DNA from: Tupaia tana
Taxonomy: Eukaryota > Chordata > Mammalia > Scandentia > Tupaiidae
Assembly: GCA_026018925.1 (NCBI GenBank)
Contig: JAKSZU010000005.1
Span: 22,182,779 to 22,246,778 of the forward strand
DNA: 64,000 nucleotides
Direction of reading: 5' to 3'
Part shown: positions 55,370 to 61,196 of the stretch, piece by piece
Numbering within the stretch: position 1 is the stretch's first letter
Layout: every line of letters begins with the position of its first letter
The notes under the pieces: model-generated
Databases searched by the model: none
Seen by the model: the letters and a program-made list of their open reading frames with translations, nothing else
Told to the model about the DNA's origin: nothing
Made by a program: the position numbers and the translations under genes

Positions 55370-55757
55370 CAATTTCTTTTTTCATTTTTTTCAGTTTTCC
55401 TTGTAGAGGCCTTTCACCTCTTTGGTTAGATTTATTCCTGGGTTATCTTATTTGTTTTGTACCTATTGTAAATGAGATTGCTTTCTTCAGTTCTGTCTCA
55501 ATCTGTTCACTGTTGGTGTATAAAAATGCTATAGATTTTTGTGTACTGACTTTGTATCTTACAACTTTACTGAATTTATTTATCACTACTAGGAGTTTTT
55601 TCATGAATTTCTTTAGATTTTCTATGTATATAACCATATCATCTCCAAAGAGAGACAGTTTAGCTTCTTCTTTTCCTACCTGAATGCCTTGTCTTTTGAT
55701 CTCTTGTCTGACTGCACCGGCTAGGACTTCCAGCACTATGTTAAAAAGGAGTGGAGA
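55370..55757 (-). mobile_element. Old L1 ORF2 fragment, 3' part
   Basis: On the minus strand it encodes [34 protein letters not shown] (the RT motif as FGDD) and KEVKGLYKEN. It is cut at 55757 by the HAL1-like element and continues at 58958. Confidence 0.92.
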
Positions 55758-56117
55758 TTCTCTGAGAAGAATCCACATGGATACTGGGAACTAGATATTT
55801 CAGGCACAGGAGAAATGAAGATTTTCTACTCATAATTCAGCCTCCAGCAAGCAAAGCTAGTGTGGCAGGAGAGTTGAGCCATTCTCTGAGAAGAATCCAC
55901 ATGGATACTGGGAACTAGATATTTCAGGCACAGGAGAAATGAAGATTTTCTACTCATAATTCAGCCTCCAGCAAGCAAAGCTAGTGTGGCAGGAGAGTTG
56001 AGCCATTCTCTGAGAAGAATCCACATGGATACTGGGAACTAGATATTTCAGGCACAGGAGAAATGAAGATTTTCTACTCATAATTCAGCCTCCAGCAAGC
56101 AAAGCTAGTGTGGTAGG
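55758..56117 (+). promoter_or_regulatory. Tandem 124-bp 5' monomers
   Basis: Units begin with ATTCTCTGAGAAGAATCC at 55757, 55881 and 56005. The first two are full and look identical; the third ends near 56117. A fourth partial copy (GGCAGGAGAGTTGAGCC...) lies at 56303-56363. In mouse L1, tandem 5' monomers act as promoters; the same role here is inference. Confidence 0.88.
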
Positions 56118-56363
56118 GAGCCCCTCTGGCCTTCTATCCCTGTCCCTGTGTCTCTGAGGTCTCTCTGTCTCTCTGCTCCTGTCTCCTCATTTTTTTTTTT
56201 GGTAATTTTTCCTTTTTACGATTTTTTTAAAGGTAGAATTTCTCTCTGGCTCTCAGCTCCATCTTTTATTTTGTTAATAAGCCCTTCTGCTCCTTTCTCC
56301 CAGGCAGGAGAGTTGAGCCATTCTCTGAGAAGAATCCACATGGATACTGGGAACTAGATATTT

Positions 56364-56391
56364 CACGCGGCGCGCTTTGCGCGCTGCGCGG
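56364..56391. promoter_or_regulatory. CpG block after the last partial monomer
   Basis: CACGCGGCGCGCTTTGCGCG then CTGCGCGG: about ten CpGs in 28 bases in an A/T-rich context, partly self-complementary. Confidence 0.7.
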
Positions 56392-56661
56392 TTTTCTATT
56401 TTGTGATTTTTTTCTTTAAAAAAAAAAAAAGAAAAGCAATTATAATTTTTTATTTTTTTGTCTTTTTTCTCTCTTTTTGTTGTTGTTTCTCTCTCTCTTT
56501 TTCATTTTCCTTTTTCTTGTCTCTCCACCCAATATCTACTGAATCTGCTGCACCAGCTATCACTACAGAACGGCAATCCGATTCTAGAACACCTCTGTCT
56601 GCTTGCTCCTGAACATTGAGGCTTAACTTCAAGAATTTGAAAGAAACACGCCATTCATCAG

Positions 56662-57663
56662 ATGACAAGAAATCACCGTCGGATCACGAGAAATATGGGA
56701 AAACGAGAAAATACCTCTCCTCCAATGGAAAAGAGTAACTCTCCTTCATCCACAAGCAGTTCGGTGAAAGTCATGGAAATGTCTGATAAGGAATTTAGAG
56801 CATTCGTAATGTCGAAGCTAACAGAGATGGAAGAAAAGAGAGACAATGAACTGCTAAAGAGAAAGGAGAAAGAAGTTGCCGAGTTCCAGGAGATGAGGAA
56901 ATTCTTGCAAGATCTAAAAGAGGAATTACACACTTTACAAAAGACTCAAATGGAACTGCTAGAGATGAAGTCTATAATACAAGAAGTCAAAATCTCCCTT
57001 GAAAGTATTAAAAGCAGACTAGATCATTCAGAAAATAGAATCTCAGATGTAGAAGAGAAAATGGCTGGCTTAGAAAAGTCCACCACGAAGACTGAGAAAA
57101 TGGCTCAAAAACTTGAGAATGATATGCGAGAAGTACTGGATACCATCAAACGTCCAAATATCCGGATAATTGGCATTCCAGAAGGTGAAGAGACCCATAA
57201 GGGCATTGATAATCTATTCCATGAAATCCTGCAAGAAAACTTTCCAAACCTAGAGAGGCATTCGAAGATCCAGTCCCAGGAAATACAAAGGACCCCAAAT
57301 AGAATCAACCCAAGAAGATCTTCTCCAAGACACATTATAGCCAGGTTGACCAAAACCGCAGACAAAGACAAGATACTAAGATTGGCAAGAGAGAAACATC
57401 AAGTTACCTATAAAGGACATCCCATCAGGCTAACAGCAGATCTCTCATCGGAAACAATGCGAGCGAGGAGAGAATGGGAAAATATATTCAAAGTGTTACG
57501 AGAGAAGCAATTTCAGCCAAGAATACTGTACCCGGCAAGATTATCTTTCAGGTGGGAAGAAAAGACAAGAACATTCTCAGATAAACAAAACCTGAAAGAA
57601 TTTACCAGCACCAGACCAGATCTCCAAGAAGTTCTCAAGGGTGTGCTGTATCAAGAATATTAA
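56662..57663 (+). CDS. ORF1 protein of the HAL1-like element, intact
   Basis: 333 aa, no stop or frameshift. Layout as in L1 ORF1p: Ser-rich N-terminus (1-40), coiled coil (about 41-162), RRM (about 165-259) with RPNIRIIGIPEGEE, C-terminal domain (260-333) with LREKQFQPRILYPARLSF. The coiled coil has an 11-residue segment (around KRKEKEVAEFQ, 66-76) absent from the neighbouring L1 ORF1. The stop TAA at 57661 is followed directly by non-ORF2 sequence. A second Met at codon 12 (MGKRENTSPP) is an alternative start and resembles usual ORF1 starts. Retention of an intact frame suggests recent insertion or selection for ORF1p function. Confidence 0.95.
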   Translation: MTRNHRRITRNMGKRENTSPPMEKSNSPSSTSSSVKVMEMSDKEFRAFVMSKLTEMEEKRDNELLKRKEKEVAEFQEMRKFLQDLKEELHTLQKTQMELLEMKSIIQEVKISLESIKSRLDHSENRISDVEEKMAGLEKSTTKTEKMAQKLENDMREVLDTIKRPNIRIIGIPEGEETHKGIDNLFHEILQENFPNLERHSKIQSQEIQRTPNRINPRRSSPRHIIARLTKTADKDKILRLAREKHQVTYKGHPIRLTADLSSETMRARREWENIFKVLREKQFQPRILYPARLSFRWEEKTRTFSDKQNLKEFTSTRPDLQEVLKGVLYQEY

Positions 57664-58677
57664 ACACAGACACACGGAAATAAGAGTCCAAAAACTATGA
57701 AAGTGGCCAACTTAATCAGAGGGACAAGTCTGAATTTGAATATCATATCCCAGAATTTAATCAGGAAAATTGAACCAGAACAGAAGATAAAAGTACATGA
57801 GACTGATAGGTTCATGCACCTTCCATTTGAACAGAATCCTAACTTGTTTCCTGGCTTTAAGCAAAGTTCCTTGGCATTTCTTTGAGTTAAGTTATAACTG
57901 GTTTTCTTAGTAGTAATGAGTGAACTCACCATTGAAAGTAGTTAGATTATGTAGGAAATTGTGTGATCAATGCAACGTGGGTGGGAAGGGAATGAAGGAC
58001 AATTGTAGACACCGGAGGTGGTGTGAGAGGAGGGTGGGAAGGGACAGAGGGTCAGAAAGAGGGGTGGAAGTAATTCTAGGAACTAGTAATGGAAAATTTT
58101 TTTGTAATGTTCATGATTGTATCACTATGCAGTGTGTACTGGATGGGAGATTGCATTTTGTATGCTGTGATGAAGCTTAGGGAAGGAATGTAAATTGAGT
58201 TACAAAAAAAAAGTTTCAGAAAAAAAATATATATATATTCAATGACTGCAGTAGGATATGTAGCCACAGCTAGGTGCTACTTTACAGGATGCGTAAAGTA
58301 AGACTTGTGTTCATGGAAATGTGGGTATCACCTGTGTTTGCTATGAGGGTATTTGGATTGATTAGGGTCTTTGGCGTTACAATAAAATGTGAGGAGAAAA
58401 CAGTATAGAAAGCAAACATAGATACCAGAGACTGTGGGAGGAGAGTGAGAGATGGCAGAGGGTAAGAGATAGAGAATCTAGGATGGGGGGAAAAAAGCAA
58501 AACATACAGAAGACAAGAAATGGAAGATCATTTGCTGACAATAACATGCTTGTTGATGTGCTTGATTGAGACAATATATAGTGTAATTTGGACGGAAAAT
58601 CTCATTTTGTATGCTGTAATGATGTTCAGAGAATGAATGCAAATAAATAAAAAAATAAAAATTAAAAAAAAAAAAAA
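57664..58677 (+). other. Long 3' UTR with internal duplication
   Basis: No ORF2 homology seen. Two diverged units can be paired: GTGTGAGAGGAGGGTGGG (58021) with CTGTGGGAGGAGAGTGAG (58432), and CATTTTGTATGCTGTGATGA (58153) with the CATTTTGTATGCTGTAATGA block (58602). A G-rich purine tract at 58010-58070 is typical of L1 3' UTRs. Confidence 0.8.
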
Positions 58678-58693
58678 AAAAAGGAGTGGAGAG

Positions 58694-58957
58694 GGAACCA
58701 GCAGTTAGTGTAATGGCTATGTCGCTGGACTCCCACATAGTCGACCGCGGTTTGCATCCCAGACCCGGTGGCTTAAAACTCACACCAGGCGCGTGTGCGT
58801 GCGTGCCCAAGATCCCGAGAGGAGAATGGAGAAGAGACTGCGGCGTGACCATCCCCCCTGGGGGGTGATTTCTCGCTTTCTGTCTCTATGTCTCTCTCTC
58901 TGTCTGGCGAGTGCACATACCCTATAGCAAAAACCTCTCCCAAAAAAAAAAAAAAAA
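58694..58957 (+). mobile_element. Type-1 SINE, young, at the HAL1-like element's TSD
   Basis: Complete, CpG-rich. GGAGTGGAGAG is at 58683-58693, with GGGAGTGGAGAG at 58958-58969, so it used the same target site as the preceding element. Confidence 0.95.
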
Positions 58958-61196
58958 GGGAGTGGAGAGTGGAAAGCCTTGTGTTGCTTCAGTTTTTAAT
59001 GGAAAGGCTTTTAGCTTTTCCCCATTTAGTGTGATTTTTGCAGAGAGTCTATTATATGTGGATTTTATTATGTTGAGGAATGTCCTTTATAGCCTCCTTT
59101 TGCTGAGTCTCGATCATGAAAGGATGTTGTATTTTAGCAAATGCTTTTCTGCATCTACAGCTATAATCATATGATTTTGATCTTTCTTTCTGTTAATGTG
59201 GTGATTTACATTTATTGTTTTACATCTGCTGAACCATTCTTGCATGCCCAGGATGAAGCCTACCTGGCCATGGTGTATAATCTTCTTGATGTGTTGCTGG
59301 ATTCGGTGTGTTAGTGTCTTCCTGAAAATTTTTGTATCAATATTCATCAAGGATATTGGCTTGTAGTTTTTTGTTGCTGTTGTTATGTCCTTTTCTTATT
59401 TGGATATCAAGGTATAAAGGGTTTATAAAATGAGCTTGGAAGGATCCCTTCCTTTTGAATTTTGAGGAATAGCTTGAGGAGAATTAGAGTTAGCTGTTCA
59501 TTGAAAGTTTTGCAGAAAGTAAAGTCATCTGAACTTGGACTTTTCTTTCTTGGGAGATTATTTATCACTGCTTCCATTTCTTCGCTTGTTACTGGTCTAT
59601 TTAGGCTTGTCTATTTCATCCTGATTCAGTCTAGGTAGCTTGTACTTGTCAAGAAATTTATTTATCTCGTCTAGGTTTCCTAGTTTGTTGTCATATACTT
59701 GCTCATAATATTCTTTCACAATTTTATATATTTCCAATATATTGGTTGTAATATTGCCAGCTTCATCAGTAATTTTAGCTATCTAGTTCCTTTCTCTGTT
59801 TTTCTTCATTAGTCTAGATAATGGTTTACTAATTTTGTTCATTCTTTCAAAAAACTAGCTTTCATTTCATTGATTTTTTTTTTTGTATAGTTCTTTTATT
59901 CTCTTATTTATTCCAGCTCTAAGCTTTACTACTTCTTTTCTTCTTTTATTTTTGGGGCTTTTTTGTTGTTGATTTTCCAGTTCTGTAAGATATGATGTTA
60001 TTTATTTGCCATCTTTCTATTTCTTCTTGTGAGCACAATGGCTATAAACTTGTTTCTTATGACTGCTTTTGCTATGTCTTGAAGGTTATGGAGAGTGGTG
60101 TGTTCACTGTCACTAACTTTAATGACAATAGCTTTAATCTTTTAATTTCATTCTTAATTTCTTCAGTAGTTTTAAAGTCATTCAGGAATAGATAGTTTTG
60201 TTTCCATGTTTTTGTGTATTTTCGAGGACTCTTTCTGTGGTTGATTTGAAGTTTAATTACATTGTGATCAGAGAATATACTAGGTATAGTTTCTCTACTT
60301 ACAAATTTATATTAGGCTTGTTTTATGGCCTATTAATTGGTCAATCTTTGACGTTTTACATGGGGATGAGAAAAAAGTGTATTTTGTAGTTGCTGAATGG
60401 AATACTCTATATATGTCTGCCAGGTCCATTTAGTTTATGATATCAATTAATTCCTGTGTTTGTTTATTTATTTTTTGTCTTGATGATCTATCCAGTGATG
60501 AAAGTGGGGTGTTGAAATTTCCAACAATTATTATATTGCAGTCTATATCTCTCTTTAGACCTAGCAGTATTTCTTTTACATATTTGGGTGCCCTGGCATT
60601 AGGTGCATAAATATTTACGATTGTTACTTCTTCTGGATAAATTAAATCTTTTTAGAACTATGTAATATTCTTTGTCTCTTCTTATGCTTTTCTATCCTGA
60701 AGTCTGTTTTATCTGATATCACCATCACAATTCCTGCCTTTTTTTCATTTCTGTTTGCATGAATCGACTTTTGCTACCCCTTCACTTTCAGTCTATATAT
60801 ATCGGTGGATAGCTCAAGATGGCGGATAGCTCAAGATGGCTTCTGTATACATCTTGAGCTATCCACCATCTTATATCTTTGTCAATGAGGCGTGTTTCTT
60901 GTAAGCAACATATAGTGGGTTCCAGTTTTTTCATCCATAGAGCCAATCTGTATGGTTTAGTTGGAGAATTTAATCCATTAACATTCAAGATTACCATCAA
61001 TCCATGTGGACTTAGTCCTGTCATCTTTTTTTTTTTTTTTCTTTTCTTCCTACTTGTTTTGTGTTCTATTTATCTCCCTTTAATTTTCCAGGAGTAATGT
61101 TCCATTAAGTATTTCCTGAAAGGCAGGCTTACTTTTGGTGAATTCTTTCAGCTACTGTTTACCTAGGGACAATTTTATTTCTCCATATCTATTTAG
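58958..61196 (-). pseudogene. Old antisense L1, ORF2 5' and central part
   Basis: On the minus strand: LKAFPLKTEATQGFPLS near the left end, [20 protein letters not shown] and [20 protein letters not shown] (59114-59350), then endonuclease-start text NVNGLNSPTKPYRLALWMKK and CLQETRLIDKDI (60788-61024). Many stops and indels. With 55370-55757 it forms one old L1, truncated at both ends, its start abutting a SINE head at 61197. Confidence 0.9.
60804..60867. repeat. Perfect 18-bp inverted repeat plus direct repeat
   Basis: GGTGGATAGCTCAAGATG (60804-60821) is exactly complementary to 60850-60867. Between them GCGGATAGCTCAAGATGG repeats the left arm at 60822-60839. Confidence 0.93.

Follow-up and report, generated by a model that had tools for sequence, protein, structure and literature searches.

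A likely half-L1 (HAL1-type) retroposon with an intact ORF1 in Tupaia tana

Introduction

A retroposon that encodes an intact L1-type ORF1 and carries almost nothing of ORF2 raises the question of whether it belongs to a half-L1 (HAL1) lineage, mobilised by the enzymes of other elements, or is a single L1 that happened to lose ORF2. Such an element was found in a 64,000-nucleotide stretch of the Tupaia tana genome (GCA_026018925.1, contig JAKSZU010000005.1, positions 22,182,779 to 22,246,778 of the forward strand), hereafter the window, in which all positions below are numbered.

The HAL1 retrotransposons of mammals are said to go back to Smit 1999 and to Bao and Jurka 2010 (primary paper). 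In the available portions of the literature, HAL1 is presented as an ORF1-only derivative of L1 that arose several times in mammals (PMC5753468), with poly(A), target-site duplications (TSDs) and a need for enzymes made by full-length LINEs (PMC5322556); this need for L1 enzymes is termed 'likely' in PMC4161310. The available portion of PMC13174262 does not mention HAL1.

Results

The element is a complete retroposon inserted into an older L1

The ORF1-only element is a complete retroposon of 2.9 kb on the plus strand (55758-58677), composed of monomers, an intact ORF1, a 3' UTR of ~1 kb and an A tail, and bounded by TSDs (Table 1). The initial annotation had described tandem monomers, a complete ORF1, a long 3' UTR, poly(A) and a perfect 15-bp TSD, and all of these were confirmed in the sequence. 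The duplicated target is AAAAAGGAGTGGAGA, and the A-rich tail ends in 19 uninterrupted As, five of which are counted in the TSD. The poly(A) tail and TSD that accompany HAL1 elements are thus both present, and the pair is compatible with mobilisation in trans by L1 ORF2p. The target, TT/AAAAA on the top strand, is a typical L1 endonuclease site.

On both sides, the element is flanked by parts of an older L1 in antisense orientation. The TSD core (10 bp) occurs a third time at 58959, after a tRNA-like SINE; as a 15-mer, this copy has one different base. Another L1, referred to here as the window L1 (49825-54967), lies on the same strand ~0.8 kb upstream of the element; its 319-aa ORF1 is intact and its ORF2 is interrupted. 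When the left flank was joined to the sequence past the third TSD core, a single antisense alignment to the window L1 spanned the join (query 240-2461, 72% identity, join at 629). Because the joined flanks restore a continuous antisense L1 and a clean empty site, the element and the SINE are both insertions, and the presence of the middle TSD copy indicates that they are two separate insertions into one target site. Their arrival as a single event was rejected on account of that middle copy, and a chance origin of the TSD was rejected since the empty site is a continuous L1.

The SINE has 50 matches in the window, including itself and many fragments, and a consensus of 254 bp was derived from 20 window copies. 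No family match for it was found in the available portions of the literature on colugo L1/SINE and tRNA-Gln SINEs. A tRNA scan of the window was empty, as was an Rfam search of 55700-59000.

Table 1. Features of the ORF1-only element and its insertion site, in window coordinates
Feature	Position	Strand	Evidence
5' TSD copy, 15 bp	55743..55757	.	sequence and empty-site alignment
Tandem monomers, 2.9 x 124 bp, first without its first 5 bp	about 55757-56117	+	repeat detection
Partial fourth monomer, 66 bp, 98.5% identity to the other monomers, 185 bp after the array	56303..56368	+	window self-comparison
CpG-rich hairpin, 26 bp, 10-bp stem, at end of partial monomer	56366..56391	+	RNA folding
Intact ORF1, 333 aa	56662..57663	+	open frame, Pfam and human ORF1p alignment
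Retained L1 inter-ORF spacer and ~4 codons of ORF2 start	57664..57715	+	alignment with window L1
167-bp stretch past ORF2 deletion point	57716..57882	+	scores in shuffle range against window L1
3' UTR module A, purine-rich	57883..58227	+	aligns to module B
3' UTR module B, A-rich tail at end	58290..58674	+	aligns to module A; end resembles window L1
3' TSD copy, 15 bp, identical to 5' copy	58678..58692	.	sequence and empty-site alignment
tRNA-like SINE with A tail, separate insertion, same target site	58693..58958	+	window comparison, TSD

ORF1 is intact and belongs to a lineage with at least two copies

The protein encoded by the element is an L1-type ORF1, as in HAL1. It contains the Pfam domains Transposase_22 (8.7e-33) and Tnp_22_dsRBD (1.1e-22), with an RRM-like domain at aa 164-260 and a C-terminal domain at aa 264-326, and it aligns to the solved human LINE-1 ORF1p over residues 114-331 (E 5.6e-65). 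By analogy with the layout of L1 ORF1, a coiled coil would lie ahead of the RRM-like domain. Residues 65-75 (56854-56886), within this presumed coiled coil, form an 11-residue insert that is common to the database protein P0001 and absent from both the window L1 ORF1 and a further protein, P0063.

P0001 was recovered among the best 120 of the 1,334 matches of an ORF1 protein search and is identical to the element's ORF1 at 288 of 295 aligned residues. Its contig, 2,304 bp long, is listed under Streptomyces narbonensis (protein name GCM10010230_68260); the protein begins at the counterpart of ORF1 residue 38 and also differs in its last residue. Its presence in a Streptomyces assembly probably reflects contaminating DNA from the same mammal or a relative of it. 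Because P0001 is nearly identical to the window protein, at least two copies of the ORF1 lineage exist; the element of which P0001 is part belongs to this lineage and may carry ORF2.

A tree was built from 19 proteins, chosen from the best 120 of the 1,334 matches and from the window. The element's ORF1, the window L1 ORF1, P0063 and P0001 grouped together at 100/100, which places the element inside the L1 ORF1s and beside an L1 of its own host, as would be expected of a HAL1. The element and P0001 were grouped at 100/99, with P0063 joining them at just 85/76. The window copy has an own-branch length of 0.0028, against 0.026 for P0001, and so, judged by branch length, lies close to the common ancestor of the two.

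Further copies were sought in collections that are not meant for mammalian genomes. No copy was found there of the ORF1 protein or of the exact 3'-end pattern (viral contigs and bacterial genome contigs) or of the exact monomer pattern (viral contigs), nor did a distant-mode search of plasmids and phages or a near-mode search of E. coli genomes yield one.

Homology to L1 ends about four codons into ORF2

The element and the window L1 share 78% DNA identity from about ORF1 residue 73 to 52 bp past the ORF1 stop, where the homology ends at 57715. Because L1 homology continues over these 52 bp, the junction lies at 57715/57716 and not at 57664, where the initial annotation had set it ~52 bp too early. 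In the window L1, ORF2 begins with MANLNVSTDPV; the element keeps the counterpart of ~4 codons of this start, with GTG replacing ATG. The earlier statement that the element has no ORF2 sequence thus needs qualifying by these retained codons, and it holds for everything that follows them. Whereas the window L1 has an ORF2, albeit an interrupted one, the unit defined here has none beyond this remnant, as in HAL1.

When 57664-58690 was compared with 120 ORF2-like proteins, the best E value for a match to ORF2 was 0.11. These proteins were the best 120 of 1,165 matches to the window L1 ORF2, at 59-69% identity, from horse, dog, rabbit, whale and others. The segment 57716-57890 scored 23 and 38 against the window L1 ORF2 and 3' end, within the maxima of 39 and 46 reached in 100 shuffles. 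A recognisable ORF2 hidden in the 3' UTR was rejected on the basis of both the protein test and the shuffle comparison. No clear splice signal was evident at the junction by inspection, with the window L1, which is not the true parent L1, serving as the reference.

Two open frames touch this region. One, of 62 codons (57697-57885), begins just ahead of the ORF2-start remnant and enters the 3' UTR. The other, of 90 codons, is antisense and spans the junction; a protein search with it returned no candidate.

The 3' UTR is a tandem pair and the 5' UTR is monomeric

The 3' UTR consists of two diverged copies of the same sequence in tandem, an observation that, like the ORF1 insert, the 5' UTR hairpin and the SINE in the shared target site, is new relative to the initial annotation. 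Modules A and B align with a score of 150, and 200 simple shuffles reached at most 56. A purine-rich tract is present in each module, as is CATTTTGTATGCTGTRATGA, which at up to three mismatches occurs at two sites in the window, both of them in these modules. A purine tract is a feature of L1 3' UTRs. The last ~80 bp of module B are also similar to the window L1 at its 3' end (score 68; 73% over an alignment of 83 bp that is in large part A-rich), whereas module A scores only 35 against that end. The rest of the 3' UTR, aside from the end of module B, has no clear match in the window L1. Given their position, the purine tract and the weak match of module B, the two modules may represent L1-like 3' ends. 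The simplest reading would be that read-through past the lineage's own 3' end once took in a second end of this type, and that both were retained.

At the other end of the element, the 124-bp monomers match at 99% within the array, with a shared core that is identical between copies, and they form a presumed promoter array. The hairpin at the end of the partial fourth monomer is more stable than its shuffles: the fold of 56360-56400 reaches -20.9 kcal/mol (z -3.37), and 0 of 200 shuffles were as stable. Because the 5' UTR as a whole folds no better than shuffles (z +2.14; equalled or exceeded in stability by 20 of 20 shuffles), only this local hairpin stands out. By inspection, it takes the place of ~19 bp of the monomer copy, and it might be a fold-back insertion. 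Beyond low-complexity stretches, the 5' UTR and most of the 3' UTR of the window L1 are unmatched to those of the element.

The insertion is probably young

The CpG observed/expected ratio of the element is 0.48 in ORF1, 0.32 in the 5' UTR, 0.21 in the 3' UTR and 0.34 overall, compared with 0.14 and 0.17 in the old-L1 flanks and 0.29 in the whole window; in the window L1, it is 0.35 in ORF1 and 0.57 in the 3' UTR. These values are mixed evidence for youth, and more weight is given to the identity of the monomers and the shortness of the private branch. Considering the identical monomer core, the 19-A tail, the CpG content of ORF1 and the short branch, the element is probably a young insertion. 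The initial annotation had proposed a recent, possibly new ORF1-only lineage; that the element is a retroposed derivative of L1 with ORF1 alone, and probably a recent one, is well supported.

Between the element's ORF1 and that of the window L1, dN/dS is 0.21 over 319 codons, at a dS of 0.97 that is near saturation; the ratio is 0.22 in the N-terminal part and 0.17 in the C-terminal part. Because of this high dS, and because the path between the two genes includes ordinary L1 evolution, the low ratio is no proof of selection on the element itself.

Discussion

Origin of the element

The reading favoured here, and a likely one, is that the element is a young non-autonomous retroposon of the half-L1 (HAL1) type. 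Its RNA would start in the monomer array, acting as a promoter, and would encode an intact ORF1p that binds its own RNA in cis. ORF2p would be supplied in trans by the ordinary L1s of the host and captured on the poly(A) tail; it would then nick TTTTT/AA, prime on the poly(A) and copy the RNA into the genome by target-primed reverse transcription. Only this last process has left direct marks, and the other steps are modelled on what is known of L1 and HAL1. The lineage itself may have arisen from an L1 in which everything of ORF2 from about codon 4 on was replaced by a new 3' end. This end either was a tandem pair of diverged L1-like ends from the outset or turned into one later, and the lineage would subsequently have multiplied as a family.

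Unlikely, yet the strongest competitor, is a one-off event: splicing or template jumping would have removed ORF2 from one transcript of a young full-length L1, and this RNA would have been integrated a single time. The ORF1, the monomers and the dimeric 3' UTR would then belong to a family of full-length L1s that is still alive. In human, L1 RNAs retroposed after splicing (SpIREs) are known, according to the available portion of PMC5860796, and the end of module B resembles that of the window L1, in a match that is largely A-rich. The rest of the 3' UTR, without a clear match in the window L1, fits this explanation poorly, as does the segment past the junction, whose likeness to the window L1 ORF2 and 3' end stays within the shuffle range. 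In favour of a single event, the junction was not encountered in any other copy, in collections not meant for mammalian genomes, and P0001 demonstrates another copy of the ORF1 lineage, not the absence of ORF2 there.

It is very improbable that the element descends from a full-length L1 family with the same ORF1 and that the window copy lost ORF2 by genomic deletion after its insertion. The perfect TSD and the intact ORF1 would be explained equally well, but the deletion would need to have begun almost exactly at the start of ORF2 while sparing both element ends, and the copy looks young. A domesticated ORF1-derived gene (L1TD1-like) in place of a mobile element, as an intact ORF1 with low dN/dS against L1 might suggest, can be virtually dismissed, since the perfect TSD, the A tail, the monomers and the near-zero private branch indicate a recent insertion.

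Significance and comparison with known elements

A more far-reaching proposal, which we put forward tentatively and consider doubtful at present, is that the element represents a currently amplifying, undescribed HAL1 lineage in a mammal without a known one. Its 3' end would have been replaced by a tandem L1-like pair, its ORF1p would have gained 11 residues before the RNA-binding domain, and a GC hairpin would have been added beside the promoter array. If this holds, the lineage would be an ORF1-only partner evolving apart from its ORF2 supplier. A young element with an intact ORF1 makes it testable whether a separately encoded ORF1p benefits its own RNA, and raises the further question of whether ORF1 and ORF2 can be two separately evolving components of L1. 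The dimeric 3' UTR suggests a route by which ORF1-only elements acquire new 3' ends. Because the HAL1 kind is already known, the gain in knowledge is moderate.

The neighbouring window L1 resembles the element across most of ORF1 and in the last ~80 bp of its 3' end; it differs in having an ORF2 and in lacking the 11-residue ORF1 insert. SpIRE deletions fall mainly in the 5' UTR and ORF1 part of L1, unlike the loss of ORF2 seen here. The likeness to the SpIREs of human L1 is that these are retroposed spliced L1 RNAs (PMC5860796, available portion).

Like the HAL1 elements described in the available portions of PMC5753468 and PMC5322556, the element is derived from L1, encodes ORF1 alone and has poly(A) and TSDs, and it would depend on L1 enzymes. 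Its monomeric 5' UTR, dimeric 3' UTR and 11-residue ORF1 insert set it apart from those descriptions, and maybe not from every HAL1. For the rat, the available portion of PMC8535693 says that the genome gained HAL1 activity alongside its ordinary L1s and that the internal promoter was retained; by this description, HAL1 and ordinary L1s coexist there in a similar way. Compared with HAL1s as they are known from description, the element is probably a new, young HAL1 rather than an element new in kind.
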